From Branchiostoma floridae (lineage: Eukaryota; Chordata; Leptocardii; Amphioxiformes; Branchiostomatidae): 64,000 nt of DNA. The notes under the pieces are model-generated. The model worked only from the letters and a program-made list of their open reading frames with translations. It did not search any database and was not told the DNA's origin. Below are positions 468 through 42,966 of this stretch, in pieces. The DNA lies in NCBI RefSeq assembly GCF_000003815.2, contig NC_049990.1, positions 924,830-988,829 of the forward strand, given 5' to 3'. Position 1 is the first letter of the stretch. Each line of letters opens with the position of its first letter. Both the position numbers and the translations under genes were made by a program.

Positions 468-3396
468 CTACACCACAGTCTCCATTTCAATGACGTCGTG
501 TGGAAGCAGTGCATGTCTCAGTTGCAGCAGCCTCTCTTCTATCCCTTCTGGAGTCGGTCTGGTATCTGGAACGTCGCGCCAACACGACCTCATCAGTCGG
601 TACAGGTCCTCTGGACATTCCGGCGGCCTCTCCAACCGTATGCCTTGCCTCAGAATCCCCACCATCTGAAGAAAGCTCAGCTGCATCCTGCCATCGTAGC
701 ACGGATCTTTCCCCAGCGTGGCGATCTCCCACAGCAGCACGCCGAAGGACCAGACGTCACTCTGACAGGTGTACTCGCCGGTCTCGATGGACTCCAGCGC
801 CATCCACTTCAGCGGAAGGAGTTCGTCAACGCCTGGACGATTGCATCGGACATACTGGGTAGTGGCGTAGACATCTCTGGCCAGTCCAAAGTCAGCCAAC
901 TTGGCCACGTCATCAGCAGTGATGAGGACGTTGCGAGCGGCCACGTCACGATGGGCGATTCTCAAGCGTTCCAGCTCTTGTAGAGCTCGTGCTATGTGGA
1001 CTGCGTATCCAAGAAGGTTTCCAAGTAGGTCTTTCTCGTTGATGTTTCCAATTCGGCGTAGGAAGCCCAAGAAATCTCCTTTAGAGGCATATTCCAAAAG
1101 AATGTACTTCTCCGCAGACTTTGTGATGAGCCCCACAAGTCGAACAATGTTGGACACACGACAATCGCCATCTCGTTGTTGGTGCACAGCTACCAAAATG
1201 GCTGCTTCTCTGTAGAAGTCTCGGTAGGACTGTGAGTCCTCGACGCGAACTGTCTTGGCGGCAACGGCGAGCTCTCCCTCAGGTGTGCGCAGTTTTCCTT
1301 TTCTGACTAGTCCAAACATTCCTTCTCCTATCAGTGGACCAGGAGTAAGATGTTTGATCTTCTTCTCCCAAAGTCCCAGCCAGCCCGGTTGTAGGCTCTG
1401 TGCTAGATCGTGCTCCATTCTCCTCAGCTCGAAAAGTATCTTGTCCTCCTCGCCTGTTTTAGGCGTGGAGCAAGCCAGAATGCTCATTTTGTAGAGTATG
1501 GCCATCACTATGGCAACAAATAAGACTAAGGAGCCCAGTGAGACCAGGATTTCGAGCATCGATTGATCGGCGCTTGTCTGCAACTGGTCACAGTTCCGTC
1601 CCGTCCATGGCGTCACACATGTGCAGCTACCGTCCACATTGCTACATGTAGCATTGTTCTTACAGGCACAAACTTGATGACATCTCCAACCGAACCGACC
1701 GTTTACACATGGTTTGCTACAATTCCTTCCGTACCATCCGGTTTCGCATTCACACCTACCGTCACTAGGGCCACAAGTCGCCCCATTTTGACAGCTGCAG
1801 TTATTTGCACAGTCTTTACCGTACTTGCCATGGGGACATTTTGTCTGACACCTGGTTCCTGTCCATCCCAGCGGACAGACACAACCAGTCCAGCGGTCAC
1901 AGCTGGCACCATGTAGGCAACCACACACTTCATCACACCGGGCACCTTTTGTGTCTGGAGCACAGTTGGTAACATTGAGCACAAACGTGGTGTTGAGTGT
2001 GTTTCCCCGGGTGTCTCGGACCTGGCAGGTGTAGGGCCCGTTGTTGGTAGGTTGTATGTTCGGAACTACAAAGCCTGTCTCATTTACACCAAACCNNNNN
2101 NNNNNNNNNNNNNNNNNNNNNNNNNNNNNNNNNNNNNNNNNNNNNNNNNNNNNNNNNNNNNNNNNNNNNNNNNNNNNNNNNNNNNNNNNNNNNNNCTTTC
2201 TCTGCCTTATTTGGAAATGTAACCGAGATGTATTCATCATCGAAATGGTATGCCTTGCAATGAAACGTAGCATTTGCGGAAATGTAGGTATCGCCAGGGT
2301 CGCTAGGTGTCGTCGTGATGGAGACGTCCTGTTTGGGAATGTCACAAGCCACACCTTTCCAGCCGGGCGGACATTTGCAGGCACCGTTAAACCCATGGCA
2401 GCGGGCGCCGTTCTTACAGATGCAGGTTTTGTCACAAACTAAACCGTATTTTCCAACGGGGCATCCTACCGGATTCGTCCGTATCTCAAGATATTCAACA
2501 TTTGCCATTGGCTTTAATGTTCCATCAGTCTCTACGACTGTTGTTAAGCTGATAGGGTAGCTCGGAACTTCGCAGCTGTAGAGCGTATCTTTTGTTGTAG
2601 GATATTCCAAAGAAACCATTATGAAAAATTGGAGATCTTCATTTTTTAGGACAGAGTCGGGAACAAATTTTCCTAAGTAATTAAGTCTTAACGCGTCGTC
2701 ATATTTCCTGTTCCTGTACAAGTGAAAGGAAATATTGGGTAGTTGAGAATTGGAACTAGGAGTGCATGTTAGTTGACGGAAACCTCTGTCCCATAGCTCC
2801 ATTAAATCTGCCAAATGCGGAATGTATCTAGTGTACGAAACTAAGCGAATGTTACAGTCGCTGTTGTCCATGTGTACCATCCATGGAAGAAGGATTGTTG
2901 AGTTTGTCACTTTGCTGTGTGTCCCACTGCTAAAGAAAACATCTCCGGTTGTCGTCACGAGTTCCCCTGATGTAGTTACACTGTGTAGTAAATCTCCCGT
3001 CTGTCCGTCAGTGTTGACCGGAGTTTCACACGTCTCGTTATACACAGGAGGATAGCCCTCAACGTCACTTAACTCTACCTTAACTCTCGTGTTGTGGACT
3101 CCACTGCGGATTGTCAGCAGATATGCCGACTGTACTGACCTGTCCAGTGGGTTGGCGACCACAATAGTGCAGTTCTTCGTCACATTAAAGCGGCCGTACG
3201 GATCTCCCTCCAGTTTGGCACACGGAAGTTCCGCTTTTTCTCCCGCCCGGGTCCTAGGTAGGCTAAAAACGGTCTCCCCAACCGCGACGTTTTCTGGTAC
3301 GGAAACGCTGAACTCCTGGGCCCGAGCAGAACAAAGAAGCTGGACAAGAACACTCCACAAAGCAACAACAAGCAATCCCTGCAAGTTTCCTGACAT
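468..3396 (-). CDS. Receptor tyrosine kinase A, single exon, cadherin-like/Ig/EGF ectodomain
   Basis: Type I membrane receptor kinase. The start at 3396 gives a signal peptide ending near CSARAQ, then a cadherin-like domain (PEN, LDR, DVEGYPP), a variable segment with Ig-like cysteines (QLTC, YSCEV), an 8-Cys EGF module, an Ig-like domain (YTCQV), three more EGF modules, a transmembrane helix and a kinase with GEGMFG loop, VAAK lysine, HRDVAARN, DFG and WMALES. It ends in ETVV. There is no intron. The 100-N gap at 2096-2195 breaks the frame, but against copy D (around 45,350) only three bases seem to be missing, and replacing the gap by three bases restores the frame, so I read the gene as intact, about 940 residues. 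Its variable segment is like D's, while its upstream flank is nearly identical to B's. Family assignment is unresolved: EGF-Ig-EGF recalls Tie and the cadherin-like start recalls RET. Confidence 0.93.
2096..2195. other. Assembly gap (100 N), probably about 3 missing bases
   Basis: The flanks read CAAACC before and CTTTCTCTGCC after. Copy D has these joined with only CAA between them. A placeholder of fixed size explains the apparent frame break in RTK A. Confidence 0.85.
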
Positions 3397-4379
3397 ATTT
3401 TTACCTCACTTGTACCTCTAAAGTTGAAGAAAAATCCCAGAGGTAACGACGCGGGTTCTCACTGCGTTTTCTTGTTTGTTTTTTCCCTGCTAGAAGTTCA
3501 GGGGGCATTACTCTTCAATAGCGCAGTATCGTGTGTCACTTCGTCTGTGTTACACATAATTATGTTTTTGTATTTTTGCCCTTTGTTCAGATAGATGTAT
3601 ATTCTAGGTGTTAAAAGGTACAAGACTGGAGAGGCGTGCAGGCTGTTACCAAACCATACGTAAAAGGCCGAATATGATCCGGATCCTTACACTTGCTTTG
3701 AGATTAGTGTGTCTCCTGCACAAATCGCCTTGTTAGAAGAGGAAGAAGAAAAACATCGGGGATAAAATACGTGGACGGACAGTTCTGCAAAAGGAAAGAG
3801 ACGATGGTAGGGCACGACGGTTGTTGAGTCTGCTTTAGGTAGATTACAAAACGTCACAAAGACACACACGCACGATGACATCGATATGCCTCCCTTTGGA
3901 ACACATAACAAAACGTTGCAGTTTTTAGGCAATATTGGCTTTCACTGGCATCATATCCGCTTTCTCGGGAACCATCAAACGAACAGAACCCTTAGTACCC
4001 GTACCCTACTTAATTGAAGCGAAAGCCATAAAAAGACCAATGGCACGTTTGTAGCTTAGTTTCTGTCAGTACTTTCAAAGACACCAACTATTTTGCAGGA
4101 AATGATTCTGAACCTGTCTATGTTAGCTTATGCTCAGAACTTATACATTTTCATCTAAACTTTCAAAATTCATCATGGGAATTTTAATTCCAATGTTGGA
4201 ATTTGAAAAAGTGGCCAAACAGTCAACACAGAAGATTAAGGCACCAGACTAATCTCCAAGCAGATCTTGCGGTGGCATAATATAGTATCATAAGCTGTGG
4301 AAGGAGTTTAGCCGGCAGAGGTGTTTAATTCCACCAACACCTGCTTTTAGATCTCAATCCTGGTTAAGTTATAACAAAG

Positions 4380-6419: not shown

Positions 6420-8360
6420 TGTGACAGCGATCTCGCCCCGGGGGGGGGGGGGGGGGCGAGATCACTAGCGATCTCGCCCTCCCCGGCTAGTGATCTCGCC
6501 CCCCTACCTCGCCCCCCTTTAGCGATTTCGCCCCCCCCCCAAAAAAAACGGGTTTACATGACATTTTAGAAGGTGATTGGTATAAATCACAAAATGCAGT
6601 TTCAGAATGATATAAGTACACGAGTTTGATACATAACTCAAATCATAGTATCAATATTAACGTAATTACATGGTAATAAGATAGTTGAACTTGTTTCAGA
6701 CAAGGAGGGTTGGGTCCCTTGTATTCCCATTATTGCATATACCTGAGTCTTGACAGAAGATGGTATTTCATTGTATTCACCTGTCCTCAAGCAACCTATA
6801 TATCTCCAATATGAAGTCTCTACCATGAAGTGACCACAAAAGAACTATGTAATGTCTTTATTAATTATGCAAATACTAGGTATTAATTAGAATAACGCAC
6901 ATTTTGGTATATGCACCTGGCCAAGGGATATCTTCACCTCCAACATGACTGTTTTTTCTAGTATTTAGGAACTGATGCATTTACCCGTGATTCTTAAGAC
7001 TGGTACTTTACCAGTGTTTCTGTAGCATTTATCAACAGCTATATCAACTTGCGCGTAGATAGTGTTTATAATGAGAAACTATTATTCACGTGTGTTTTTG
7101 TTAGTGCTTTGGAAATGTTTCCAGCACAAGAAAGAAAACACTGTGACAAATTGAAAACATATAGCTGACCTATTACGGCAACTACAAATACTACAAAACA
7201 GAGCGGCAAGGGTGGTGCTACAACGTAGGCAACGGGACATCAGCATTGTGAACCTCCACCAAACTCTCAACTGGAAATACCTGGCTGATAGGAGATTTGA
7301 GCACACGTGCATTATGGTTTTCAAATGTCTGACAGGCTTGGCACCAACATACCTATCCGCCACATTTCAGCACAACTCTCGTATCCATACTTACAACACT
7401 AGGCAGACCACTAAACTACACCCACCAAGCTACACCACCACATGTGGACAAAAAACATTTGCATACACTGGCACTAGCCAGTACAACAAACTAGCAGATA
7501 ACATAAGAAACAACACAACACTAAAAGGCTTTAAAACAGCTCTGAAGAACACATGTATATCTGACCTCAAGTAATATTGGAACTTAGTATGGAAAAGCAC
7601 CTTTGTCTCTGATGTGCCTTACTGTTTTAATTTTTTTGTTTGTTCAATCTTTACATATGATTTACTATCCATACTTTGTAAATTTCAGTTTCATTAATTT
7701 TCGATTTACACATGATTTGATATATGATTTGACCTCTGACCTCCACTCCATCTCTTGACATATTGATTTTGACCTTGGAACGTTTTCGACATGAGTATGG
7801 ACACTGATTATGTTTTGACGCACCGGTTTTATGTTTTCTGTACTGTATGTTGTCCCTGGATGTTCAAAGTTTGACTGATTGTAACCACGTTTTTTGTCCT
7901 GTATTTATTATTTTACATGTATGTTTGATGGGCCCCCTTGGAAATCAACTATGCACTGTTGTAGGGGCTACCCATCTGTTTTCAAGATGAAATAAATAAA
8001 TAAAAAAGTATTCCGTACCATAGACGGTGTTGATTTATACGTTCGCAGTAGCACTGTTTTTATACCACTTTTATAATACTATATATCAGCTGCAAAAATT
8101 GTCCTTTTCATTTCAATGTCATGTTTGCACCGAACAATATAGTATGGACTTTCGAGGTATGACATCTTACGGTACGGTAATAAGGTGCCATATAGGTATC
8201 AGGTAACACACCATATACGTTACTCCCCAGGTGCAGTATAGTACCAGGTAGCGCACCTGTAATATGTAGTAACCAGCTGCTCTTGGGGTGGGGGGGCGAA
8301 AACGCTAAAGGGGGGCGAAAACGCTAGTGATCTCGCCCCCAGGGCTAGATCGCTGTCACA
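6420..8360. mobile_element. Non-autonomous inverted-repeat element, 4-bp CCGG target duplication
   Basis: Present only in unit 1. The ends are inverted (TGTGACAGCGATCT at 6420; its complement ends at 8360) and flanked by CCGG at 6416-6419 and 8361-8364. Units 2 and 3 have a single uninterrupted site at about 23,485 and 37,310. GATCTCGCCC-type subterminal repeats and long G/C runs lie inside both ends. No transposase was seen. A LINE fragment sits in the middle. Superfamily not assigned. Confidence 0.8.
7160..8010 (+). mobile_element. 5'-truncated non-LTR retrotransposon (LINE) 3' end
   Basis: The plus-strand reading frame to the stop near 7574 gives LQILQNRAARVV, then FKCLTGLAPTYLS and GTSQYNKLADNIR. 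This is the typical C-terminal tail of CR1/L2-like reverse transcriptase proteins. It is followed by a 3' UTR with GGGCCCCCTTGGAAAT and an (AAATA)n tail near 7990-8007. The RT core is absent. Confidence 0.75.
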
Positions 8361-8991: not shown

Positions 8992-11900
8992 TTATTTAAA
9001 TCCCTGTTTGGTCTCTGTATAGATGTTTGGGTTCGATTCAGTGATGGCCTGAGACTGAACATGATCTTCCTGATTGTTTTGGGGGGTGGGGGCCATATAT
9101 TCACGATGTCTATCATTGCTACCGGTCACTGCAGTAGCTGTGGTGTTTGTGTTAGTCTCAATGACGGCCTGAGACTGGCCCTGCCCTGTCTGATCATGAC
9201 TACTGGTTTCCACAGCAGCTGTGGTGCCCGAGTTGGATTTAATGATGGCCTGAGACTGGCCCTGCCCTGTTTGATCATAACCGCTGGTCACTACAGCAGC
9301 TGTAGTGTTTGTGTTAGTTTCAATGACGGCCTGAGGCTGGCCCTGCTCTGTCTGATCATGACCACTAGTTCCTACAGCAGCTGTGGTGCCCGAGTTGGAT
9401 TTAATGATGGCCTGATACTGGCCCTTAACGTTGTACAAGGAATTCAGCTGTGAGTCAGTCCGCCCTGTGCCATAAGATAGAATACCAGCATCCAAGGATT
9501 CAGTGACAGCTTGAGACTGGCCCTGCCCTGCCTGATCAGAACCACTAGCTTCCACAACAACTGTGGTGTTTGTGTACAAAAAATTAAGCTGCGAGGCAGT
9601 CGGCCCTGAGCCATATGATAGATTTCTAGCATCAAAGGAGTTAGTGATGGCCCCAGGATAACCCTGCCCTGTCTGGCTGTCCATGTTTTTACACTGGTGA
9701 TCATGACCACTGGTCACTACAGTAGCTTTGGTGTTTGTGTTGGATTTAGTAATGGCCTGAGACTGGTCCTGCCCTGTCTGATTGTGTTGAGGGGCCATAT
9801 CTTCATACTCTTGATCTTGGCTACTGGACGGTACAGCATCTGCGGTGTTTGTGTTGGATTGAGTGAAGGACTGAGACTGACCCTGCCCTGTCTGTTTATA
9901 GTCGTGATATTGAATACCGGTCATTTCGGCTTCTTTGGTGTTTGTGTTGGATTCTGTTATGGCCTTAGACTGACCCTGCCCTGTCTGATTGTGTTGTTTG
10001 TCTGCACTAGCTGTTTTGTTTGTGTTCGTTTCAATGACGGCCTGAGACTGGCCCTGCCCTGTCTGATCATGACCACCAGTTCCTACAGTAGCTGCGGTGC
10101 CCGTGTTGGATTTAATGATGGCCTGATACTGGCGCTCAACGTTGTACAAGGAATTAAGCTGTGAGTCAGTCGGCCCTGAGCCATATGATAGATTTCTAGC
10201 ATCAAAGGAGTTAGTGATGGCCCCAGGATAACCCTGCCCTGTCTGGCTGTCCATGTTTTTATACTGGTGATCATGACCACTGGTCACTACTGTAGCTTTG
10301 GGGTTTGTGTTGGATTTATTGATGGACTGAGACTGGCCCTGTCCTGTCTGATTGTGTTGAGGGGCCATATCTTCATACTGTTGATCTTGGCTACTGGCAA
10401 GTACAGCATCTGTGGGGCTTGTGTTGGATTCAGTGATAGCCTGAGACTGGCCCTGTCTTGTCTGATCGCGTTGTTTGTCTACATCTTCATACTGGTGATC
10501 ATCATCCCTGGTCATTAATGCAGCTGTGGTGTTTTTGTTGGATTCTGTGATGGCCTTAGACTGACCCTGCTTTGTATGATTGTGTTGTTTGTCTATATCT
10601 TCATACTGGTGATCATCATCACTGGTCATTAAAGCAGCTGTGGTGTTTGGGTTGGATTGAGTGATGGCCGGAGACTGGCCCTGCCTTTTCTGATTGTGTT
10701 GTTTGTCTATATCTACATACTGGTGATCATGGCCACTGCTTACCACAGCAGATTTGGTGTTTGTGTTTAACTTATTGATGGCCTGAGTCTGGCCCTGCCC
10801 TGTCTGATCGCGTTGTTTGTCAACGTCTTCATACTGGTGATCATGCCCACTGGCCACTACAGCAGCTGTGGTGTGTTTTGTGTTTAACTTAGTGATGGAC
10901 TGAGACTGACCCTGCCTTGTCTGATTGTGTTGTTTGTCTATATCTTCATACTGGTGATCATCATTGGCAACTGCAGTAGCTGTGGTGTTTGTATTGGATT
11001 GAGTGATGGCCTGAGACTGGCCCTGCCTTGTCTGATTGTGTTGTTTGTCTATATCTACATACTGGTGATCATCATCATTGGCAACTACATCAGCTGTATT
11101 GTTTGTGTTTGTGTTTAGCCCTAAAGGAGGATGGCTGGTCCTCCTCTTGCACCAGGTAGTGAGAGTGATGGTGCCAATCAGGACAATGGCAGTTATTGAA
11201 CCACAGATAGTGGCAATGAATACAGCATTGGGTAAATTGGGAGATAATTCATGAGAACTGCGGATATCTGGTTTGTCTGGTGTGATTGCATGGAGGGAAG
11301 GTGGTGTTGCTCTAGCTTGGCTTGTATTGCCTGGAGTTGAACCAGAATCGCCCTTGAAGTACCAGTTACATCGAGAGGTGACAGTGCCATTGGAACTGTT
11401 GTTAGCACTTTGCATTGGACCAATTAGGGACTGTCTGGCAGATGTGGAGTCTTCAGGGCGCGCTGTTGGACCAGCATTGATTAATGTGGTGCCAAACGGA
11501 GAAGATGTTGACCCTGCAGATGACTGGAAGGAAGTTTGGATATCAACAGACAGTGTTGATATGGTTACTCCTTCGCATATCGATCCTTCCAGCATCTGCT
11601 CGTTGTCTACTTTAACCTCTCGTAGCTCGGGGAGATTTACAAATGCACAGGGCTGAATCTCTGTTATCTTATTGGACTCCAGATACAAGTTTCTGAGGCT
11701 GGGTAGGTCTGCAAATGTGCCAGTTCGAATCATTGTTATCTGGTTGCTTATTAGGTTCAACAAATATAGCTGGGACAAATCTGCAAATGTGCTACTTTGA
11801 ATCATTGTTATCTGGTTTGAGGATAGGTCCAGTGTTTCAAGCAGGGGTAACGCTGCAAACAAACCAGGATTGATCTTACTTATCTTGTTGCTGTTCAACA

Positions 11901-12393
11901 ATAAATTTTGGAGTGGGTCTGCAAATGTACCTGCCTGAAGCGTTGTTATTTGATTGAATGACAGGTCGATCTCCCAGAGCTGCGGTAACTCTGCAAACGC
12001 ACCAGGCTCAATCCTTGTAATGTTGTTATGGGACATGATTAACCGTCTTAGCCGGCGTAGACCTGCAAATGTGCCATTCTGAACCATTGTTATCCTGTTT
12101 CGGGCCAAGCACAAAAGTTGGAGATCGTTTAGCTGTACATGTGCAAACGTACCTGCCGGAATATTTGTTATGTTGTTTGAGAACAGGTCCAACCTACTTA
12201 TTCCCCATGTCTTAAGAAATGTGCCTGCCTGAATGTTTGCTATCATGTTATGTAAAGATAAGGGGTTGCCGTATGTGATATTCTGAGGGACGCTGGTGAA
12301 ATCACGCTTGTCTTCACAGAAAGTTTTTGACACGTTGGACTCATTCCAGAGGATGAGAAGAAAGATGAGCACGTGTCGCAGATTTTTCCCCAT
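8992..12393 (-). CDS. LRR receptor A, single-pass, phosphotyrosine-motif repeat tail
   Basis: 1133 residues, no intron. Signal peptide residues 1-25 (LRHVLIFLLILW core). About nine LRRs cover residues 45-265 (spacing about 24, NQITMI.TGTFADLP.L type). Then a Ser/Thr-rich stalk with NxS/T sites, a transmembrane helix at 391-414 followed by CKRR, and a cytoplasmic tail of about 719 residues. The tail is built from imperfect repeats around HQYEDIDKQHNQT and GQGQSQAITESNTNTT. It carries six Src-SH2-like YEDI/YEDV/YVDI sites and three YxxM sites (YEDM twice, YKNM once); one repeat has Cys in place of Tyr (CKNM). The N-terminal LRR cap has lost most of its cysteines compared with copy B. Likely a cell-surface recognition receptor that recruits SH2 proteins; the ligand is unknown and the function is inferred. 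Confidence 0.9.
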   Translation of the reverse strand: MGKNLRHVLIFLLILWNESNVSKTFCEDKRDFTSVPQNITYGNPLSLHNMIANIQAGTFLKTWGISRLDLFSNNITNIPAGTFAHVQLNDLQLLCLARNRITMVQNGTFAGLRRLRRLIMSHNNITRIEPGAFAELPQLWEIDLSFNQITTLQAGTFADPLQNLLLNSNKISKINPGLFAALPLLETLDLSSNQITMIQSSTFADLSQLYLLNLISNQITMIRTGTFADLPSLRNLYLESNKITEIQPCAFVNLPELREVKVDNEQMLEGSICEGVTISTLSVDIQTSFQSSAGSTSSPFGTTLINAGPTARPEDSTSARQSLIGPMQSANNSSNGTVTSRCNWYFKGDSGSTPGNTSQARATPPSLHAITPDKPDIRSSHELSPNLPNAVFIATICGSITAIVLIGTITLTTWCKRRTSHPPLGLNTNTNNTADVVANDDDHQYVDIDKQHNQTRQGQSQAITQSNTNTTATAVANDDHQYEDIDKQHNQTRQGQSQSITKLNTKHTTAAVVASGHDHQYEDVDKQRDQTGQGQTQAINKLNTNTKSAVVSSGHDHQYVDIDKQHNQKRQGQSPAITQSNPNTTAALMTSDDDHQYEDIDKQHNHTKQGQSKAITESNKNTTAALMTRDDDHQYEDVDKQRDQTRQGQSQAITESNTSPTDAVLASSQDQQYEDMAPQHNQTGQGQSQSINKSNTNPKATVVTSGHDHQYKNMDSQTGQGYPGAITNSFDARNLSYGSGPTDSQLNSLYNVERQYQAIIKSNTGTAATVGTGGHDQTGQGQSQAVIETNTNKTASADKQHNQTGQGQSKAITESNTNTKEAEMTGIQYHDYKQTGQGQSQSFTQSNTNTADAVPSSSQDQEYEDMAPQHNQTGQDQSQAITKSNTNTKATVVTSGHDHQCKNMDSQTGQGYPGAITNSFDARNLSYGSGPTASQLNFLYTNTTVVVEASGSDQAGQGQSQAVTESLDAGILSYGTGRTDSQLNSLYNVKGQYQAIIKSNSGTTAAVGTSGHDQTEQGQPQAVIETNTNTTAAVVTSGYDQTGQGQSQAIIKSNSGTTAAVETSSHDQTGQGQSQAVIETNTNTTATAVTGSNDRHREYMAPTPQNNQEDHVQSQAITESNPNIYTETKQGFK

Positions 12394-14855: not shown

Positions 14856-15090
14856 TTAGTAAGCATTTTTCACCGTGGCAGCCAACAGTTGGAGGACGTC
14901 ACAATCTTCTGTACAACCTCTGCTTGGAGAATTCAGCACCAGGTAGGCTAAGGCAAATAACAAATGTATGCACAACAAAATTACCTTTAAATGTTTATCC
15001 ACCGGCAGAAACATACCTTTGAAGCCACTGAGAACATCTTCAGGCGGCACCTTGGCCAGGAACTTGAGTAGAATGCCCCAGGCACCAGGT
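14856..15090 (-). pseudogene. Possible exon fragment ending at a splice-donor-like site
   Basis: On the minus strand a frame reads LLKFLAKVPPEDVLSGFKG, then MFLPVDKHLK, directly before GTAATT; another donor-like AAAG|GTATGT lies inside. It recurs in all three units (29,870-30,095; 42,525-42,720) with the same reading, and a frame-broken relative lies near 4380-4440. I do not recognise a family. It could be a duplicated exon of an unrelated gene or a repeat with coding-like composition. Confidence 0.3.
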
Positions 15091-15438
15091 GCTGGTGTGT
15101 AGGGTGCGGCCGTCGGTAGCTGGTCCGTAATGGCTCAGGCTGTTGTTGTGTAGGGTGCGGCCGTCGGTAGCTGGTCCGTGATGGCTCAGGCTGTTGTTGT
15201 GTAGGGTGCGGCCGTCGGTAGCTGGTCCGTAATGGCTCAGGCTGTTGTTGTGTAGGGTGCGGCCGCCGGTAGCTGGTCCGTGATGGCTCAGGCTGTTGTT
15301 GTGCAGGGTGCGACCGTCGGTAGCTGGTCCGTGATGGCCCAAGCTGTTGTTGTGTAGGGTGCGGCCGTCGGTAGCTGGTCCGTAATGCCCCAGGCTGTTG
15401 TTGTGTAGGGTGCGGCCGCCGGTAGCTGGTCCGTAATG
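15091..15438. repeat. 51-bp minisatellite, about 7 copies (unit 1)
   Basis: Consensus contains GGCTCAGGCTGTTGTTGTGT followed by AGGGTGCGGCCGTCGGTAG and CTGGTCCGTGAT. Because 51 is a multiple of three it stays open on the minus strand as repeats of HHGPATDGRTLHNNSLS. Copy number differs between units (7, 9, 5). I treat it as a VNTR, not a gene. Confidence 0.9.
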
Positions 15439-15584
15439 TCGTGTGGTAAACAACTCGTGATTAGTCTTTCTTACAGGGCGGGGCTGATTGTCTGAAGCTG
15501 GATATTTATATTAACATTAATATTAATGTTCATGATGTAAAATGAAATCATGATGCAGGTTTTATAATACACGTCAGATCAAAG

Positions 15585-17256: not shown

Positions 17257-20191
17257 CTACACCACAGTCTCCATTTCAATGACGTCATGTGGAAGCAGTG
17301 CACGTCTCAAGTGCAGCAGCCTCTCTTCTATCCCTTCCGGAGTCGGTCTGGTATCTGGAACGTCGCGCCAACACGACCTCATCAGTCGGTACAGGTCCTC
17401 TGGACATCCCGGCGGCCTCTCCAACCGTATTCCTTGCCTCAGAATCCCCACCATCTGAAGAAAGCTCAGCTGCATCCTGCCATCGTAGCACGGATCTTTC
17501 CCCAGCGTGGCGATCTCCCACAGCAGCACACCGAAGGACCAGACGTCACTCTGACAGGTGTACTCGCCGTTCTCGATGGACTCCAGCGCCATCCACTTCA
17601 GCGGAAGAAGTTCGTCAACGCCTGGACGGTTGCATCGGACATACTGAGTAGTGGCGTAGACATCTCTGGCCAGTCCAAAGTCAGCCAACTTGGCCACGTC
17701 ATCGGCAGTGATGAGGACGTCGCGAGCAGCCACGTCACGATGGGCGATTCTCAAGCGTTCCAGCTCTTGTAGGGCTCGTGGTATGTGGACTGCGTAGCCA
17801 AGAATGTTTCCAAGTAGGTCTTTCTCGTTGATGTTCCCAAATCGTCGTAGCAAACCCAAGATATCTCCTTTGGAGGCATATTCCAAAAGAATGTACTTAT
17901 CCGCAGACGTGGTGATGAGCCACTACAAGTCGAACAATGTTGGACTCACGGCANNNNNNNNNNNNNNNNNNNNNNNNNNNNNNNNNNNNNNNNNNNNNNN
18001 NNNNNNNNNNNNNNNNNNNNNNNNNNNNNNNNNNNNNNNNNNNNNNNNNNNNNCATCCCGTTGTTGGTGCACAGCTACCAAAATGGCTGCTTCTCTGTAG
18101 AAGTCTCGGTAGGACTGTGAGTCCTCGACGCGAACTGTCTTGGCGGCAACGGCGAGCTCTCCCTCAAATGTGCGCAGTTTTCCTTTTCTGACTAGTCCAA
18201 ACATTCCTTCTCCTATCAGTGGACCAGGAGTAAGATGTTTGATCTTCTTCTCCCAACGTCCCAGCCAGCCCGGCTGTAGGCTCTGTGCTAGATCCTGCTC
18301 CATTTTCCTCAGTTCGAAAAGTATCTTGTCCTCCTCGCCTGTGTCAGGTGCGGAGCAAGCCAGAATGCCCGTTTTGTAGAGTATTGCCATCACTATGGCA
18401 ACAAGGACGACTAAGGAGCCTAGTGAAACCAGGATTTCGAGCAGCGGTTCATCTCTGCTTGTCTGCCATTGGTCACAGTCCGGCCCCGTCCATGGCGTCA
18501 CACATGCGCAGCTGCCATCCACGTTGCTACATGTAGCGTTATTCTTACAGGTACAAATCTGCTGACATCTCCAACCGAACCGACCGTTTTTACACTGTTT
18601 GCTACAATCCTTACCGTACCACCCGTCGGTGCACTCACACGTACCATCGCTAGAGCTACAACTCGCCCCATTTTGACATGTACAGTTCCTTTCACAGTCT
18701 TTACCGTACTTGCCATGGCGACATTTTGTATGACACCTGATTCCTGTCCATCCCGGCGGACAGACACAACCAGCCCAACGGTCACAGCTGGCACCTTGTA
18801 GGCAACCACACACTTCATCACACCGAGCACCTTTTGTGTCAGGAGCACAGTTGGTAACATTGAGCACAAACGTGGTGTTGAGTGTGTTTCCCCGGGTGTC
18901 TCGGACCTGGCAGGTGTAGGGTCCACTGTTGGTTGGTTGTATTTTCGAAACCTCAAAGTCAGTCTCATTTACACCAAATGTAACTTTCGTTGTCACATTT
19001 TGAAAGGTTATTGACACGGACCTAACCTCGATATGGTGTGCCTTGCAATGAAACGTGATATTTGCGGAAATGTAGATATCGCGAGGATCGCTAGGTGTCG
19101 TCGTGACGGAGACGTCCTGTTTGGGAATGTCACAGGCCACACCTTTCCAACCGGGCGGACATTTGCAGGCACCGTTAAACCCGTGGCAGCGGGCGCCGTT
19201 CTTACAGATGCAGGTTTTGTGGCAAAGTAACCCGTATTTTCCAACTGGGCAGCCCACTGGTTTTATTTGTATGTCCAGGTATTCAACATATGATATCTTT
19301 CGGGTGTTCTGATTCTCATAATATATTCGTATTGGAGTGCGAAACTGGGGAATTTCACACTTGTATGACATTGCTTCTCTTGTAGGAATCGTCCCGGAAG
19401 CCAACATTATGAAGTTGAAATGCTTGGCGTTCACGACGGATTCAGGAACATACTTTCTTAAATGTTTAAGAATAGCCTTTCCGCCATATTTAAGATTAAA
19501 CAAGTCCCAAGACCTATTTTGGGCAAGTAAGCCCGCAGTGCAGGTTAGCTGATGAATGCCATTGTGCCAGAGATCTTGCAATAATGTTAAGTCTTCGATA
19601 TTGGCCAATATTTGACGGCCTAAAGCGAATGTTGCAATCACTGTTGTGTGTGTGAAACATCCAAATATTAGTTTTCCAGTCGGTAGGGCGGAGTAATCCA
19701 GTGACTGAATTGAAAATTTGTTTTGCAAACACAATGTCTCCTTCTGTTGTTACTCCTTCCCCAGCGCTAGTTACACTATAAAGGAAATCTCCTGTCTCGC
19801 CGTTCCAGTTGACCGGAGTTTCACACGTCGCGTTATACACAGGAGGATAGCCCTCAACGTCACTTAACTCTACCTTAACTCTCGTGTTGTGGACTCCACT
19901 GCGGATTGTCAGCAGATATGCCGACTGTACTGACCTGTCCAGTGGGTTGGCGACCACAATAGTGCAGTTCTTCGTCACATTAAAACGGCCGTACGGATCT
20001 CCCTCCATTTTGGCACACGAAAGTTCCGCTTTTTCTCCCGCCCGGGTCCTTGGTAGGCTGAAAACGGTCTCCCCAACAGCGACGTTTTCTGGTACGGAAA
20101 CGCTGAACTCCTGGGCCCGAGCAGAACAAAGAAGCTGGACAAGAACACTCCACAAAGCAACAACAAGCAATCCCTGCAAGTTTCCTGACAT
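17257..20191 (-). pseudogene. Receptor tyrosine kinase B, probably inactivated
   Basis: Same architecture as RTK C, to which its variable segment corresponds. Three defects are visible. (1) A net 4-base insertion at 19603-19630 relative to C (33,535-33,552) shifts the frame in the ectodomain; translation from the normal start ends near 19514. (2) A one-base insertion near 17,925 relative to the other copies gives a stop (TAA) a few codons later. (3) The catalytic-loop Asn is Asp (HRDVAARD; all others HRDVAARN), which should impair Mg-ATP binding. Three compensating one-base changes occur near 19,505-19,545. Defect 2 lies close to a gap, where base quality may be poor; defects 1 and 3 do not. 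The ends (ETVV, signal peptide) are preserved, so the decay is recent or partly an assembly artefact. Confidence 0.75.
17954..18053. other. Assembly gap (100 N), probably about 5 missing bases
   Basis: The flanks CACGGCA and CATCCCG correspond to CACGACA and CATCTCG in copy D, which are separated there by only ATCGC. The placeholder size is not real. Confidence 0.8.
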
Positions 20192-20735
20192 ATTTTTACC
20201 TCACTTGTACCTCTAAAGTTGAAGAAAAATCCCAGAGGTAACGACGCGGGTTCTCACTGCGTTTTCTTGTTTGTTTTTTCCCTGCTAGAAGTTCAGGGGG
20301 CATTACTCTTCAATAGCGCAGTATCGTGTGTCACTTCGTCTGTGTTACACATAATTATGTTTTTGTATTTTTGCCCTTTGTTCAGATAGATGTATATTCT
20401 AGGTGTTAAAAGGTACAAGACTGGAGAGGCGTGCAGGCTGTTACCAAACCATACGTAAAAGGCCGAATATGATCCGGATCCTTACACTTGCTTTGAGATT
20501 AGTGTGTCTCCTGCACAAATCGCCTTGTTAGAAGAGGAAGAAGAAAAACATCGGGGATAAAATACACGGACGGACAGTTCTGCAAAAGGAAAGAGACGAT
20601 GGTAGGGCACGACGGTTGTTGAGTCTGCTTTAGGTAGATTACAAAACGTCACAAAGACACACACGCACGATGACATCGATATGCCTCCCTTTGGAACACA
20701 TAACAAAACGTTGCAGTTTTTAGGCAATATTGGCT

Positions 20736-25473: not shown

Positions 25474-28092
25474 TCAATGACGGGACTGGCCCTGCCCTGT
25501 CTGATCATGACTACTGGTTCCTACAGCAGCTGCTGTGCCCGAGTTGGATTTAATAATGGCCTGATATTGGCCCTCAACGTTGTACAAGGAATTAAGCTGT
25601 GAGGCAGTCGGCCCTGTGCCATAAGATAGATTTCTAGCATCAAAGGAGTTAGTGATGGCCACAGGATAACCCTGCCCTGTCTGGCTGTCCATATTCTCAT
25701 ACTGGTGATCATGACCACTGGTCACTACAGTAGCTTTGGTGTTTGTGTTGGATTTAGTGATGGCCTGAGACTGGTCCTGCCCTGTCTGATTATGCTGAGG
25801 GGCCATATCTTCATACTGGTGATCAAGACCACTGGATACTGCAGTAGCTGTGGTGTTTGTGTTAGTTTCAATGATGGCGTGAGACTGAACCTGCCCAGTC
25901 TGATCATGACCACTGGTTCCCACAGCAGCTGTGGTGCCCGAGTTGGATTTAATAATGGGCTGATACTGGCGCTCAACGTTGTACAAGGAATTTAGCTGTG
26001 AGGCAGTCGGCCCTGTGCCATAAGATAGAATACCAGCATCCAAGGATTCAGTGACAGCCTGAGACTGGCCCTGCCCTGCCTGATCAGAACCACTAGCTTC
26101 CTCAGCAGCTGTGGTGTTTGTGTACAAGGAATTAAGCTGTGAGTCAGTCGGCACTGAGTCATATGATAGATTTCTAGCATCAAAGGAGTTAGTGAAGGCC
26201 TGAGGATTATCCTGCCCTGTCTGGCTGTCCATGTTTTTATACTGGTGATCATGACCACTGGTCACTACTGTAGCTTTGGAGTTTGTGTTGGATTCAGTGA
26301 TGGCCTGAGACTGGCCCCGCCCTGTCTGATTGTGTTGAGGGGCCATATATTCATACTGTTGATCTTGGCTACTGGCCGGTACAGCATCTGTGGGGCTTGT
26401 GTTGGATTCAGTGATAGCCTGAGACTGGCCCTGTCTTGTCTGATCGCGTTGTTTGTCTACATCTTCATACTGGTGATCATCATCACTGGTCATTAATGCA
26501 GCTGTGGTGTTTTTGTTGGATTCTGCGATAGCCTTAGACTGACCCTGCTTTGTATGATTGTGTTGTTTGTCTATATCTTCATACTGGTGATCATCATCAC
26601 TGGTCATTAAAGCAGCTGTGGTGTTTGTGTTGGATTCTGTGATGGACTGAGACTGGCCCTGCCTTGTCTGATCATGACCCTTGTTTTCATTCTGGCCACT
26701 TGTCATGACGGAAACTGATGTGTATGTGTTGCTACTAATAGTATTGTGATTTAGCCCTAGAGGAGGATGGCTGGTCCTCCTCTTGCACCAGGTGGTGAGA
26801 GTGATGGTGCCAATCAGGACAATGGCAGTTATTGAACCACAGATAGTGGCAATGAAAACAGCATTGGCTAACTTGGGAGATAATTCATGAGAACTGCGGA
26901 TTTCTGGTTTGTCTGGTGTGATTGCAAGGAGGGAAGGTGGTGTTGCTCTAGCTTGGCTTGTATTGCCTGCAGAACCTGTAGTTGAACCAGAATCGCGCTT
27001 GAAGTACCAGTGATAGCGAGAGGTGACGGTTCCATTGTAACTGTTGTTAGCACTTTTCATTGGGCCAAAAGAGGACTGTGTGGCAAATGTGAAGGCTTCA
27101 GGGCGCGCTGTTGGACCAGCATTGATTAATGTGCTGCCAAACGGAGAAGATGTTGACACTGGAGATGACTGGAAGGGGGTTTGGATATCAACAGACAGTG
27201 TTGATATGGTTCGTTCTTCACATATCGATCCTTCCAGCATCTGCTTGTCGTCTACGTATACGTTAACCTCTCGTAGCTGTGGTAGATTTACAAATGCACA
27301 GGGCTGAATCTCTGTTATCTTATTGGACTCCAGATACAAGTTTCTGAGGCTGGGTAGGTCTGCAAATGTGCCAGTTCGAATCATTGTTATCTGGTTGGAG
27401 TCTAGGTCCAACGTAAAGAGCTCCGGCAACTCTGCAAATGTGCTAGTTCGAATCATTGTTATCTGGTTGGAGGACAGGATTAGTATTTGAAGCCGGGGTA
27501 ACTCTGCAAACACACCAGGATCGATCTTAGCTATCTTGTTGTTGTTCATCGATAACTTTAAGAGACCGGGTGTGTCTGCAAATGTACCTGCCTGAATCGT
27601 TGTTATCTGATTGAATGACAGGTCGATAAAGCCGAGATGGGGTAACTCTGCAAACGCACCCGGCTCAATCCTTGTTATGTTGTTATGGGCCATGTATAAC
27701 CATTCTAGCCGACATAGACCTGCAAATGTGCCATTCTGAATCATTGTTATGCTGTTGCGGGACAAGCACAAAGAAGAGAGATTGTATAGCGGTGCAAATG
27801 TACCTGCAGGTATATTTGTTATGTGGTTGGATAACAGGTCCAACCTATTTATTCTGCTCAGCTTAACAAATGCATCGGGCTGAATCTTTGTCATCAAGTT
27901 ATGTTGCAAAGATAAGAGTTCGCCATGTTCAATATTCTGAGGGATGCTGGTGAAACCACGCTTGCTCCAACACCCCGGTTGGTCTGGTCGGCAAGTATGA
28001 GAGTCTCTACAGAAAGCTTCTGACACGTTGGACTCATTCAGGAGGAGGAGAAGAAAGATCAGCACGTGACGCAGCTTTTTCCACATGGTCAT
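25474..28092 (-). CDS. LRR receptor B, tail truncated by frameshift
   Basis: 872 residues, no intron. Signal peptide, then a complete cysteine-containing N-terminal LRR cap (C28, C34, C41) that copies A and C lack, about nine LRRs (residues 60-290), a stalk, a transmembrane helix at 410-434 and a repeat tail. The tail has two YEDI/YEDV sites and four YxxM sites (YEYM, YKNM, YEDM, YENM). Relative to A, five bases (CCTGA on the plus strand) are missing near 25,483; translation then reads SRH and stops. The rest of the tail lies out of frame at 24873-25473. Extracellular and membrane parts are intact, so a shortened receptor could still be made. The ectodomain is clearly more diverged from A and C than those are from each other. 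Confidence 0.85.
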   Translation of the reverse strand: MTMWKKLRHVLIFLLLLLNESNVSEAFCRDSHTCRPDQPGCWSKRGFTSIPQNIEHGELLSLQHNLMTKIQPDAFVKLSRINRLDLLSNHITNIPAGTFAPLYNLSSLCLSRNSITMIQNGTFAGLCRLEWLYMAHNNITRIEPGAFAELPHLGFIDLSFNQITTIQAGTFADTPGLLKLSMNNNKIAKIDPGVFAELPRLQILILSSNQITMIRTSTFAELPELFTLDLDSNQITMIRTGTFADLPSLRNLYLESNKITEIQPCAFVNLPQLREVNVYVDDKQMLEGSICEERTISTLSVDIQTPFQSSPVSTSSPFGSTLINAGPTARPEAFTFATQSSFGPMKSANNSYNGTVTSRYHWYFKRDSGSTTGSAGNTSQARATPPSLLAITPDKPEIRSSHELSPKLANAVFIATICGSITAIVLIGTITLTTWCKRRTSHPPLGLNHNTISSNTYTSVSVMTSGQNENKGHDQTRQGQSQSITESNTNTTAALMTSDDDHQYEDIDKQHNHTKQGQSKAIAESNKNTTAALMTSDDDHQYEDVDKQRDQTRQGQSQAITESNTSPTDAVPASSQDQQYEYMAPQHNQTGRGQSQAITESNTNSKATVVTSGHDHQYKNMDSQTGQDNPQAFTNSFDARNLSYDSVPTDSQLNSLYTNTTAAEEASGSDQAGQGQSQAVTESLDAGILSYGTGPTASQLNSLYNVERQYQPIIKSNSGTTAAVGTSGHDQTGQVQSHAIIETNTNTTATAVSSGLDHQYEDMAPQHNQTGQDQSQAITKSNTNTKATVVTSGHDHQYENMDSQTGQGYPVAITNSFDARNLSYGTGPTASQLNSLYNVEGQYQAIIKSNSGTAAAVGTSSHDQTGQGQSRH

Positions 28093-29441: not shown

Positions 29442-30097
29442 GAACCTGATTTAGAAGAAAAAAAGGGGACAAAACCCTGAAGTGCTAATAGTGAACAGAA
29501 GAAAATAAAACAATTGATCAAAAAATCTAGGATACCACTAAATCTATAGCATACATGCTATCACTAAATCATAATGTGCTTATACAAAAATATAGATGTA
29601 GACAAAAATTTAAGTTGAGAGTATCCATTTTTTGAAGCCTAGAGGGAGGGAATGTTTTTCACAACAGGCGGGAAAACATTTGAACCGGACTGTGGCCTCG
29701 AGAGATGGCATGATCAATCTGCAGAAATTCCGGTTATGGCAGACCATGAAGTCAGAAAAAAGAACAAACAAACAAACAAACAAACAATCACGGCGCAGCA
29801 CCCGTCCCCCACTGTAAGAGTAACATAACCTACAAGCAGATGTCGGGATAAAAAAACTGTCAGTATAAAGCATTTTTCACCGTGGCAGCCAACAGTTGGA
29901 GGACGTCACAATCTTCTGTACAACCTCTGCTTGGAGAATTCAGCACCAGGTAAGCTAAGGCATATAGCAAATGCATGCACAACAGAATTACCTTTAAATG
30001 TTTATCCACCGGCAGAAACATACCTTTGAAGCCACTGAGAACAGCTTCAGGCGGCACCTTGGCCAGGAACTTGAGTAGAATGCCCCAGGCACCAGGT

Positions 30098-30548
30098 GCT
30101 GGTGTGTAGGGTGCGGCCGTCGGTAGCTGGTCCGTAATGGCTCAGGCTGTTGTTGTGGAGGGTGCGGCCGTCGGTAGCTGGTCCGTGATGGCTCAGGCTG
30201 TTGTTGTGAAGCGTGCGGCCGTCGGTAGCTGGTCCGTAATGGCGTAAGGCTGTTGTTGTGTAGGGTGCGGCCGTCGGTAGCTGGTCCGTGATGGCTCAGG
30301 CTGTTGTTGTGGGGGGTGTGGCCGTCGGTAGCTGGTCCGTGATGGCTCAGGCTGTTGTTGTGTAGGGTGCGGCCGTCGGTAGCTGGTCCGTGATGGCTCA
30401 GGCTGTTGTTGTGTAGGGTGCGGCCGTCGGTAGCTGGTCCGTGATGGCTCAGGCTGTTGTTGTGTAGGGTGCGGCCGTCGGTAGCTGGTCCGTGATGGCT
30501 CAGGCTGTTGTTGTGTAGGGTGCGGCCGTCGGTAGCTGGTCCGTGATG
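30098..30548. repeat. 51-bp minisatellite, about 9 copies (unit 2)
   Basis: Same repeat as at 15091-15438. One unit has a small length change (ATGGCGTAAGG), which breaks the otherwise continuous minus-strand frame. Confidence 0.9.
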
Positions 30549-31289
30549 TCGTGTGGTAAACAACCTGGAATTAGTCTTCCCTACAGGTCTGGGCTGATTG
30601 TCTGAAGCAGGCTATTTATATTAACATTAATATTCATGATGTAAAATGAAATCATGATGCAGGTTTTATAATACACGTCAGATCAAAGTTTATTGCACCC
30701 GTCACAGGTTTAATGTAAGGAAAGGCGTTGTATACGGTCGACTACTGGCTGCTAAGATTAATCTTGTTCAGTACTACTATTCAAAGCTACATTAAGTATT
30801 CAAAGCATTTTAATAGAAGAAATAACGAGAGTTCAACGGTCTCATACCTTCACCGATTAATTACAACATCAGTGAAATATAGACACAGCACTGGATTCAA
30901 ACTGCAAATTGACTTTAGACATAATACGGAAGAAGGAATGATGTGTTAAGTTATATATATATTTTTTAATTGGGAAATCATGTTGCAAAGCATCTCTAGT
31001 ACCCTCCACATTTTTGTATGCTTATCATTGACTAAGTAAGCTTGTAACATGTACATAGCTACATCTTAATACTCAAGCCATCACAGCAACCCATCAAACT
31101 GTTACTGTAGGAATTGGTACACTGCAAAGCTAGCTCTCAATTCAAACTTAGTAATGGCCTCAAAACAATGCTCAGTGATTGAAATATCAACACAAGCACA
31201 AAACACACGAAGTAAGATTCTACAAAAATGCTAAGAATGGCAAACAAAAGCTTCATATTTTCTTTTACAAGATTCCACACCGAGAAAAA
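30549..31289. other. 3' flank of RTK C
   Basis: Uninterrupted version of the sequence split by an insertion in unit 1, closely matching 42,967-43,725. Holds a candidate polyadenylation signal. Confidence 0.6.
30689..30694 (-). promoter_or_regulatory. Candidate polyadenylation signal AATAAA for RTK C
   Basis: AATAAA on the minus strand about 600 bases beyond the stop, position conserved in copies B and D. Confidence 0.4.
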
Positions 31290-38049: not shown

Positions 38050-40935
38050 TCAGTGATGGCCTGAGACTGAAACTGATCTGCCTGATTGTTTTGGGGGTGG
38101 GGTGGGGGGCATATATTCATGATGTCTATCATTGCTACTGGTCACTGCAGTAGCTATGGTGTTTGTGTTAGTTTCAATGACGGCCTGATACTGGTACTGC
38201 CCAGTCTGATCATGACCACTGGTTCCTACAGCAGCTGCTGTGCCCGAGTTGGATTTAATAATGGCCTGATACTGGCCCTCAACGTTGTACAAGGAATTAA
38301 GCTGTGAGTCAGTCGGCCCTGTGTCATATGATAGATTTCTAGCATCAAATGAGTTAGTGTTGGCCTGAGGATGATCCTGCCATGTCTGGCCGTCCATATT
38401 CTCATATTGGTTATAATGACCACTGGCCACTACTGTAGCTGTTGGGTTTGTATTGGATTTAGTGATGGCCTGAGACTGACCCTGCCCTGTCTGATTGTGT
38501 TGAGGGGCCATATATTCATACTGTTGATCTTGGCTACTGGCCGGTACAACATCTGTGGTGTTTGCGTTGGATTCAGTGACGGCGTGAGACTGGCCCTGCC
38601 TTGTCTGATTGTGTTGTTTGTCTACATCTTCATACTGGTGATCATTACCACTCAATACTGCAGTAGCTGTGGTGTTTGTGTTAGTTTCATTAGACCGAAC
38701 CTGCCCAGTCTGGTCATGACCACTAGTTCCCACCGCAGCTGTGGTGCCCGAGTTGGATTTAATAATGGGCTGATACTGGCCCTCAACGTTGTACAAGGAA
38801 TTCAACAGTGAGGCAGTCGGCCCTAAGCCATATGATAGATTTCTAGCATCAAAGGATTTAGTGACAGCCTGAGACTGGCCCTGCCCTGCCTGATCAGAAC
38901 CACTAGCTTCCACAGCAGCTGTGGTGTTTGTGTACAAAGAATTAAGCTGCGAGGCAGTCGGCCCTGAGCCATATGATAGATTTCTAGCATCAAAGGAGTT
39001 AGTGAAGGCCTGAGGATTATCCTGCCCTGTCTGGCTGTCCATGTTTTTATACTGGTGATCATGACCACTGGTCACTACTGTAGCTTTTGGGTTTGTGTTG
39101 GATTTATTGATGGCCTGAGACTGGCCCCGCCCTGTCTGATTGTGTTGAGGGGCCATATCTTTATACTGGTGATCATGACCACTGGCCACTACTGTAGCTT
39201 TTGGGTTTGTGTTGGATTCAGTGATGGCCTGAGACTGGCCCTGCCCTGTCTGATTGTGTTGAGGGGCCATATATTCATACTGTTGATCTTGGCTACTGGC
39301 CGGTACAGCATCTGTGGGGCTTGTGTTGGATTCAGTGATAGCCTGAGACTGGCCCTGTCTTGTCTGATCGCGTTGTTTGTCTACATCTTCATACTGGTGA
39401 TCATCATCACTGGTCATTAATGCAGCTGCGGTGTTTTTGTTGGATTCTGTGATGGCCTTAGACTGACCCTGCTTTGTATGATTGTGTTGTTTGTCTATAT
39501 CTTCATACTGGTGATCATCATCACTGGTCATTAAAGCAGCTGTGGTGTTTGGGTTGGATTCTGTGATGGCCTGAGACTGGCCCTGCCTTGTCTGATCATG
39601 ACCCTTGTTTTCATTCTGGCCACTTGTCATGACGGAAACTGATGTGTATGTGTTGCTACTAACAGTATTGTGATGTAGCCCTAGAGGAGGATGGCTGGTC
39701 CTCCTCTTGCACCAGGTAGTGAGAATGATGGTGCCAATCAGGACAATGGCAGTTATTGAACCACAGATAGTGGCAATGAAAACAGCATTGGCTAACTTGG
39801 GAGATAATTCATGAGAACTGCGGATATCTGGTTTGTCTAGTGTGATTGCAAGGAGGGAAGGTGGTGTTGCTCTAGCTTGGCTTGTATTGCCTGTAGTTGA
39901 ACCAGAATCGCGCTTGAAGTACCAGTTACATCGAGAGGTGACAGTGCCATTGGAACTGTTGTTAGCACTTTGCATTGGACCAATTAGGGACTGTGTGGCA
40001 GATGTGGAGGCTTCAGCATTGATTAATGTGGTGCCAAACGGAGAAGATGTTGACCCTACAGATGACTGGAAGGAAGTTTGGATATCAACAGACAGTGTTG
40101 ATATGGTTACTCCTTCGCATATCGATCCTTCCAGCATCTGCTTTTTGTCTACTTTAACCTCTCGTACCTCGGGTAGATTTACAAATGCACAGGTCTGAAT
40201 CTCTGTTATCTGATTGGACTTCAGATACAAGGTTTGGAGGCTGGGAAGGTCTGCAAATGTGCCAGTTCGAATCATTGTTATCTGGTTGCTTATTAGGTTC
40301 AACAAATATAGCTGGGGCAAATCTGCAAATGTGCTAGTTTGAATCATTGTTATCTGGTTTGAGGATAGGTCCAGTGTTTCTAGCAGGGGTAACGCTGCAA
40401 ACAAACCAGGATTGATCTTACTTATCTTGTTGCTGTTCAACAATAAATTTTGGAGTGGGTCTGCAAATGTACCTGCCTGAAGCGTTGTTATTTGATTGAA
40501 TGACAGGTCGATCTCCCAGAGCTGCGGTAACTCTGCAAACGCACCAGGCTCGATCCTTGTAATCTTGTTATGGGACATGATTAGCCTTCTTAGCCGGCGT
40601 AGACCTGCAAATGTGCCATTCTGAATCATTGTTATTCTGTTGCGGGCCAAGCACAAAAGTTGGAGATCGTATAGCTGTACATGTGCAAATGTACCTGCCG
40701 GAATATTTGTTATGTTGTTTGAGAACAGGTCCAACCTACTTATTCCCCATGTCTTAAGAAATGTGCCTGCCTGAATGTTTGCTATCAAGTTATGTAAAGA
40801 TAAGGGGTTGCCGTATGTGATATTCTGAGGGACGCTGGTGAAATCACGCTTGTCTTCACAGAAAGTTTCTGACACGTTGGACTCATTCCAGAGGATGAGA
40901 AGAAAGATGAGCACGTGTCGCAGCTTTTTCCCCAT
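38050..40935 (-). CDS. LRR receptor C, alternative C-terminus from a C-run shift
   Basis: 961 residues, no intron. Nearly the same signal peptide and LRR region as copy A (both lack the cysteine cap seen in B), transmembrane helix 384-408, repeat tail. The tail has three YEDI/YEDV sites and five YxxM sites (YEYM twice, YKDM, YKNM, YENM). Near 38,092-38,110 the C-rich codons differ in length from A and B; the frame changes from MAPTPQNNQ to MPPTPPPKQ and ends shortly after at SVSGHH. About 20 residues present at the A terminus are lost. Likely a functional surface receptor; ligand unknown. Confidence 0.9.
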   Translation of the reverse strand: MGKKLRHVLIFLLILWNESNVSETFCEDKRDFTSVPQNITYGNPLSLHNLIANIQAGTFLKTWGISRLDLFSNNITNIPAGTFAHVQLYDLQLLCLARNRITMIQNGTFAGLRRLRRLIMSHNKITRIEPGAFAELPQLWEIDLSFNQITTLQAGTFADPLQNLLLNSNKISKINPGLFAALPLLETLDLSSNQITMIQTSTFADLPQLYLLNLISNQITMIRTGTFADLPSLQTLYLKSNQITEIQTCAFVNLPEVREVKVDKKQMLEGSICEGVTISTLSVDIQTSFQSSVGSTSSPFGTTLINAEASTSATQSLIGPMQSANNSSNGTVTSRCNWYFKRDSGSTTGNTSQARATPPSLLAITLDKPDIRSSHELSPKLANAVFIATICGSITAIVLIGTIILTTWCKRRTSHPPLGLHHNTVSSNTYTSVSVMTSGQNENKGHDQTRQGQSQAITESNPNTTAALMTSDDDHQYEDIDKQHNHTKQGQSKAITESNKNTAAALMTSDDDHQYEDVDKQRDQTRQGQSQAITESNTSPTDAVPASSQDQQYEYMAPQHNQTGQGQSQAITESNTNPKATVVASGHDHQYKDMAPQHNQTGRGQSQAINKSNTNPKATVVTSGHDHQYKNMDSQTGQDNPQAFTNSFDARNLSYGSGPTASQLNSLYTNTTAAVEASGSDQAGQGQSQAVTKSFDARNLSYGLGPTASLLNSLYNVEGQYQPIIKSNSGTTAAVGTSGHDQTGQVRSNETNTNTTATAVLSGNDHQYEDVDKQHNQTRQGQSHAVTESNANTTDVVPASSQDQQYEYMAPQHNQTGQGQSQAITKSNTNPTATVVASGHYNQYENMDGQTWQDHPQANTNSFDARNLSYDTGPTDSQLNSLYNVEGQYQAIIKSNSGTAAAVGTSGHDQTGQYQYQAVIETNTNTIATAVTSSNDRHHEYMPPTPPPKQSGRSVSVSGHH

Positions 40936-42720: not shown

Positions 42721-42966
42721 ACTGGTGTGTAGGGTGCGGCCGTCGGTAGCTGGTCCGTGATGGCTCAGGCTGTTGTTGTGTAGGGTGCGGCCGTCGGTAG
42801 CTGGTCCGTAATGGCTCAGGCTGTTGTTGTGTAGGGTGCGGCCGTCGGTAGCTGGTCCGTGATGGCTCAGGCTGTTGTTGTGTAGGGTGCGGCCGTCGGT
42901 AGCTGGTCCGTGATGGCTCAGGCTGTTGTTGTGCAGGCTGCGGCCGTCGGTAGCTGGTCCGTAATG
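42721..42966. repeat. 51-bp minisatellite, about 5 copies (unit 3)
   Basis: Same repeat as in units 1 and 2; shortest array. Confidence 0.9.

Follow-up and report, generated by a model that had tools for sequence, protein, structure and literature searches.

Three leucine-rich repeat (LRR) genes of the amphioxus Branchiostoma floridae, referred to as A, B and C, probably encode receptors whose tails serve as multivalent phosphotyrosine docking arrays, the valency of which changes by gain and loss of repeat units. They lie in the window, i.e. the whole stretch of 64 000 nucleotides that was analysed (contig C12, positions 924830-988829, in a genome of 513 Mb and 431 contigs), and their tails hold HQYEDI/V and QY(E/K)xM cassettes inside units of about 38 residues of the type QAITESNTNTTAAVVTSGHDHQYEDIDKQHNQTRQGQS. 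By the combination of LRRs, a transmembrane (TM) segment with a basic block and cassette units, they belong to an amphioxus cassette-tail family that is spread across the genome, and the core of the cassette motif is under constraint.

Anatomy of genes A, B and C

Each of the three genes, all on the reverse strand, has a single open frame that starts with a hydrophobic N-terminus and continues through LRRs, a stalk rich in Ser and Thr, one hydrophobic segment and the residues CKRR into a long tail (719 aa in A, 437 aa in the open frame of B and 553 aa in C). Gene A (8992..12393; 1133 codons from ATG to stop, 1133 aa; Pfam LRR_8, E 3.4e-45) begins with a probable signal peptide, as read from the sequence (12328..12393), followed by the LRR region (approximately 11599..12246; Pfam LRR_8 and LRR_5), the top PDB match of which is the acid labile subunit (7wrq_A, E 1.8e-66), and by the TM segment with CKRR after it (11152..11229), an arrangement of membrane segment and basic block also found in relatives. 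The tail then runs through six YVDI/YEDI/YEDV units (Tyr 445, 482, 521, 559, 597 and 635; 10426..11127, located by sequence and repeat finding), a YEDM unit (Tyr 673) and a YKNM unit (Tyr 711; together 10219..10425) into a distal part (8995..10218) with LYNV/YQAI units, spacer units devoid of cassettes, a second YEDM, a second KNM unit in which Cys replaces Tyr at residue 901 (HQCKNM), and a terminal YMAP. The tail of gene B (25474..28086) stops at a frame change near 25474, and the final residues of gene C (38050..40935) are in a different frame from those of A; both frame changes, which were left uncorrected, are either genuine or assembly errors.

The single-pass anatomy of the original prediction agrees with the KRR found directly after the membrane segment in all three sequences. 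The tails are predicted to be cytoplasmic because of these positive charges, together with the signal-like N-terminus and LRRs of an extracellular type, the top PDB matches being secreted or ectodomain proteins. Cysteine accounts for two of the 719 residues of the gene A tail. The N-glycosylation sequons, of which 23 family tails contain 262 compared with 177 in shuffled sequences (a count inflated by the repeats), are in an excess that is odd for a cytoplasmic tail and that counts against the docking reading. In A, B and C, Pfam finds no kinase domain, so that they are not Trk-like LRR kinases, no TIR domain, so that they are not Toll-like receptors, and no WSC domain (E up to 0.01), unlike BbLcLRR (see below). 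A metallophosphatase match in the gene A tail (E 0.0016) is under the Pfam cut-off and is regarded as due to chance.

Tyrosine cassettes and their exchange

The tail of gene A contains 7.4 copies of a 114-nt tandem unit (TRF, 10261-11109), and 27-residue units lacking the 11-residue motif cassette also occur in the tails. Recounting gave exactly the numbers originally predicted, i.e. three, four and five YxxM sites in A, B and C, respectively, and six, two and three YEDI/YEDV/YVDI sites, and supported the proposal that motif type and copy number change between these paralogues. Each tail holds several YxxM sites, as docking of p85 would require, on what is predicted to be the cytoplasmic side, while the pYEEI-like ligands of Src SH2 domains are represented as a sequence class. 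Among 26 picked loci, 23 had a recognisable TM-KRR (L034, L041 and L049 extend past the end of the locus), and in the tails of these 23 YxxM occurs 44 times against a shuffle mean of 5.6 (maximum 11, 200 shuffles) and the Src-ligand-like Y[EDVK][DEN][IV] 70 times against 1.0 (maximum 5), these sites being repeat copies and, hence, mutually dependent. The Grb2-type YxN pattern is within chance in the same tails (35 versus a shuffle mean of 26 and a maximum of 38).

Two other readings of the tyrosines were discarded. An ITAM consists of two YxxL/I about 6-12 residues apart, and the YEDI/V tyrosines of gene A are spaced by 37-39 residues. With I/V/L/S at -2 of the tyrosine as the criterion for an ITIM, all 161 cassettes scored carry H, Q, N, R or P at that position; outside the cassettes the ITIM pattern occurs 0, 1 and 0 times in the tails of A, B and C, and 18 times in the 23 family tails, which equals the shuffle maximum.

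The three genes have also exchanged parts. The ectodomain of C matches that of A at 94-99%, whereas its membrane segment and proximal tail match those of B at 95-99%; further along, in the distal part of the tail, A and B share 92-95% identity and each of them is 84-88% identical to C. Genes of the cluster have thus swapped their recognition and signalling halves.

A genome-wide receptor family

With the tail as query (406 aa), 238 matches were obtained in the genome; those listed were merged by hand into at least 83 loci in 46 clusters, LRRs being assumed for these loci rather than checked one by one and stops being present in some of the matches. Among the loci fetched, cassettes were seen on 15 contigs, on 13 of which a TM segment and basic block lie ahead of them in the same frame, and long open frames run through the tails of many family genes. 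Over the first 531 residues of gene A, genes B and C and two further C12 loci (L018 and L029) are 72-88% identical to it, and 11 members are 40-49% identical, ten of them located on other contigs and one, L048, on C12 itself at a distance of 18 Mb.

A recurrent order is observed in the tails, namely two to eight YEDI/V units followed by YEDM or YEYM and then by YKNM. It is found in A and B, in C, which has one YKDM in addition, in a fourth gene, D, outside the window (C12, 906 kb), in the C12 loci at 674, 687 and 607 kb, and on C15; departures are a C169 tail that ends in YGNV and the C12 locus at 649 kb, with YENI, and other members mix the motif types without that order. Relatives also contain LKPNPMYAGVG units, which include NPxY, and SLYKVV-type units, and L046 has LYENV. 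L015 has nine YEDI/V sites, and the 270-aa tail of L048 has three tyrosines in all. Failure of the tyrosines to be conserved beyond the A, B and C duplicates had been named beforehand as grounds for giving up the docking reading; they are conserved overall, with losses in some relatives.

In a branch on C8 (L024 and L027) the cassette Tyr is replaced by His, a tyrosine two residues further on gives YMSL, and SYTNI sites appear; judging by these sequences, this is a change of motif type. A giant frame of 18396 aa at C8 was set aside, as the part fetched (L024) enters a stretch of X. Two LRR-Ig-type receptors with short tails and single IYENS or LYENE sites (L003 on C5, L007 on C1) form a separate family with Grb2-like motifs.

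Constraint on the motif core

Tyrosine is present in 182 of 206 cassettes from 32 genes, which were drawn from frames with at least two matches to the unit patterns (one of which includes Tyr) and then selected by a rule that required 12 of 18 accepted residues and ignored the Tyr column, identical windows being counted once per gene. By parsimony on the cassette tree, the ratio of nonsynonymous to synonymous changes is 182:78 in the core (positions -3 to +5; omega 0.50) and 351:86 in the spacer (omega 1.36), with the events non-independent through relatedness and gene conversion and the neutral ratio assuming a transition weight of 2; core omega was under spacer omega in 40 of 40 half-gene resamples. 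The lowest core ratios are those of the aspartates at -3 and +2 (17/12 and 15/11, neutral 5.0), and the Tyr codon alone reveals no selection by itself (13:4, neutral 4.0). In a leave-one-out selection, Tyr is found in 151 of 161 cassettes and I, V or M at +3 in 150 of 160.

The 24 cassettes without Tyr comprise eight from the C8 branch, where the HEYMSL-type cassettes have a tyrosine two residues further on, six from a C13 gene and ten from elsewhere. The C13 gene has lost Tyr in six of its 12 cassettes, the rest of the motif being intact (HQNEDIDK, HQHEDIDK).

Pairwise comparison of the window genes gave dN/dS values of 0.78-0.94 for ectodomain plus TM segment and of 0.50-0.61 for the tail, the alignment of which is uncertain since the units do not correspond one to one. 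Between gene A and ten distant members, ectodomain dS is 0.70-1.27 and dN/dS 0.44-0.74 (one gene, on C7, was skipped because its cut point was not found). Seven of the ten have cassettes by the pattern used and three have none by the same pattern; cassette dN/dS is 0.25-0.44 over all pairs, compared with 0.45-0.74 for the ectodomains of these seven, the pattern itself depressing dN in the cassettes.

Interleaved receptor kinases and other neighbours

Five receptor tyrosine kinase genes with HRD and DFG motifs lie among the LRR genes, at 468-3405, 17257-20200, 31290-34124 and 43726-47023 on the reverse strand and at 48811-51615 on the forward strand. The third has an Ig-like domain (Pfam), and EGF-like stretches are discernible by eye in the kinases. 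None of the five has a tyrosine between the membrane segment and the kinase domain, save one at the membrane edge (ILYK) in each; C-tail tyrosines number zero in K1-K4 (for K2, in the open frame that ends the gene) and one in K5. Genome-wide, 127 kinase matches were found, a large number of which lie in frames open over some 950 aa. LRR and kinase genes interleave on C12, in the stretches 602-728 kb and 898-976 kb, and also on C15. Four of the 46 receptor clusters have such a kinase at a distance of 50 kb or less, as matched by 21 of 4000 random placements (102 of 4000 at 100 kb, where the observed number is again four). The test used 122 kinase positions, obtained from the 127 matches by manual merging, and a null with six interpolated chromosome lengths; it overstates independence, as the C12 and C15 cases may share one ancestral arrangement. 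The idea that all family members pair with a kinase was rejected, as 42 of the 46 clusters lack one at up to 50 kb.

A tandem repeat occurs in three copies (14987-15510, 29994-30611 and 42515-43038), which separate an LRR gene from the kinase gene that follows and are open in two frames (RTSYRRPHPTQQQPEPS / GPATDGRTLHNNSLSH). At 7155-7574, an open frame looks, by eye, like the terminal part of a LINE reverse transcriptase.

A proposed docking tail of variable valency and its alternatives

In the mechanism proposed for A, B and C, the LRR domain would bind a ligand outside the cell and the tail would be a flexible array of tyrosine cassettes. Upon receptor clustering, a cytoplasmic tyrosine kinase, with the Lck/Src type as the first candidate, may phosphorylate the cassettes; pYEDI/V would hold Src-type SH2 domains, allowing phosphorylation to spread along the array, pYxxM would recruit the p85 subunit of PI3-kinase, pYKNM or pYENM could hold Grb2 as well, and the NPxY units of relatives may recruit PTB proteins. 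The number and mix of units, which change by gain, loss and exchange between neighbours, would set the strength and kind of the output. The Grb2 step is the weakest part of the proposal, given the chance-level count of YxN. Src kinases prefer I, V or L at -1, and the Q found there in the cassettes counts against docking. So do the lack of selection on the Tyr codon taken alone, the C13 gene with half of its cassettes Tyr-less, the three tyrosines of L048 and the three distant members devoid of cassettes by the pattern used. Amphioxus, a chordate, is not known to possess vertebrate-type antigen receptors. If the proposal is true, the genes form a natural series of receptors that vary in how many phosphotyrosine docking sites they have and of which type, so that evolutionary tuning of docking valency is directly testable, and they supply amphioxus innate immunity with many candidate receptors for signalling through tyrosine kinases, with a possible immune or phagocytic role.

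The tyrosines could instead serve mainly as endocytic sorting signals (YxxPhi for AP-2, with NPxY in relatives) of uptake or phagocytic receptors that work without phosphorylation. YxxPhi is indeed abundant in the 23 tails (191 versus a shuffle mean of 46), as is NPxY (32 versus 1.0, with none in A, B or C), and the prevalence of I/V/M at +3 fits such signals; however, AP-2 does not require acidic residues at -3 and +2, which are also constrained here, and one or two copies would be enough where L015 has nine, which makes this reading unlikely. We consider it still harder to believe that the tyrosines have no role and that the tail merely reflects tandemly repeated DNA whose frame happens to have stayed open and whose units are kept alike by copying. 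Units do copy and exchange, the spacer omega exceeds one, Tyr losses are tolerated in half the cassettes of the C13 gene and the Tyr codon alone fits neutrality, but the core of the very same units has an omega of 0.50, cassettes persist in seven of ten members at ectodomain dS values of 0.70-1.27 from A, and long frames are open in many genes.

The interleaved kinases, poor in docking tyrosines of their own (five of five in the window), may suggest a split receptor kinase that uses the LRR tails in trans. The interleaving in two C12 clusters and on C15 and the 21 of 4000 placements speak for it; against it, most receptor clusters stand apart from any such kinase, the C12 and C15 cases perhaps descend from one arrangement and at 100 kb chance does as well in 102 placements. 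The probability of this reading is slim. The composite scenario, in which ectodomain and tail recombine as modules among tens of lineage-specific LRR genes, repeat number sets valency and the C12 tail-less kinases phosphorylate their LRR partners in trans, would come as a surprise if it held in full.

Relation to known receptors

For a multivalent phosphotyrosine docking tail on an LRR receptor, several partial parallels exist. The tails of the CD28/CD19/IRS type carry YxxM, as well as YxNM able to hold p85 and Grb2; they share YxxM with A, B and C, but have no LRR ectodomain and their sites are not repeat copies. SLITRK proteins and LRRC25 share LRRs and tail tyrosines, yet have few, non-repeated sites and form small conserved families; among the papers listed in the literature search, none was seen to describe a cassette-type tail for them. 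The engulfment receptors CED-1/Draper/MEGF10 mix NPxY and YxxPhi-type sites in their tails, which are joined to EGF-like instead of LRR ectodomains and contain no repeat array. The SH2, PTB and AP-2 preferences used above are general background. In titles and beginnings of abstracts of the open-licence literature, no tandem tyrosine-cassette LRR receptor was described, and the cassette letters as a text query matched only unrelated work on an Entamoeba Argonaute.

The original statement that no LRR receptor with such a tail has been described was too strong in view of B. belcheri BbLcLRR, although tandem cassettes are not described for it in the available portions of that report (PMC8211107). 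According to these portions, BbLcLRR is, like A, B and C, an amphioxus LRR receptor with a single TM segment and tail tyrosines, three of which are phosphorylated by Lck and act through SH2 phosphatases; it differs in its length of 699 aa with a WSC domain and in its single ITIM or ITIM-like sites (DDYATV, HDYSEV and HDYDDP), which are inhibitory in Jurkat cells (PMC8211107). A second B. belcheri LRR receptor, FrLRR, is linked to Grb2 and phagocytosis in the accessible part of its report, and the GPI anchor predicted for it implies that, unlike A, B and C, it has no cytoplasmic tail (PMC10199209). By analogy, BbLcLRR offers the nearest experimental support for phosphorylation of amphioxus LRR tails, as far as the available portions of its report go (PMC8211107). 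Receptors with phosphotyrosine tails being already known, what looks new here is the tandem-cassette family.
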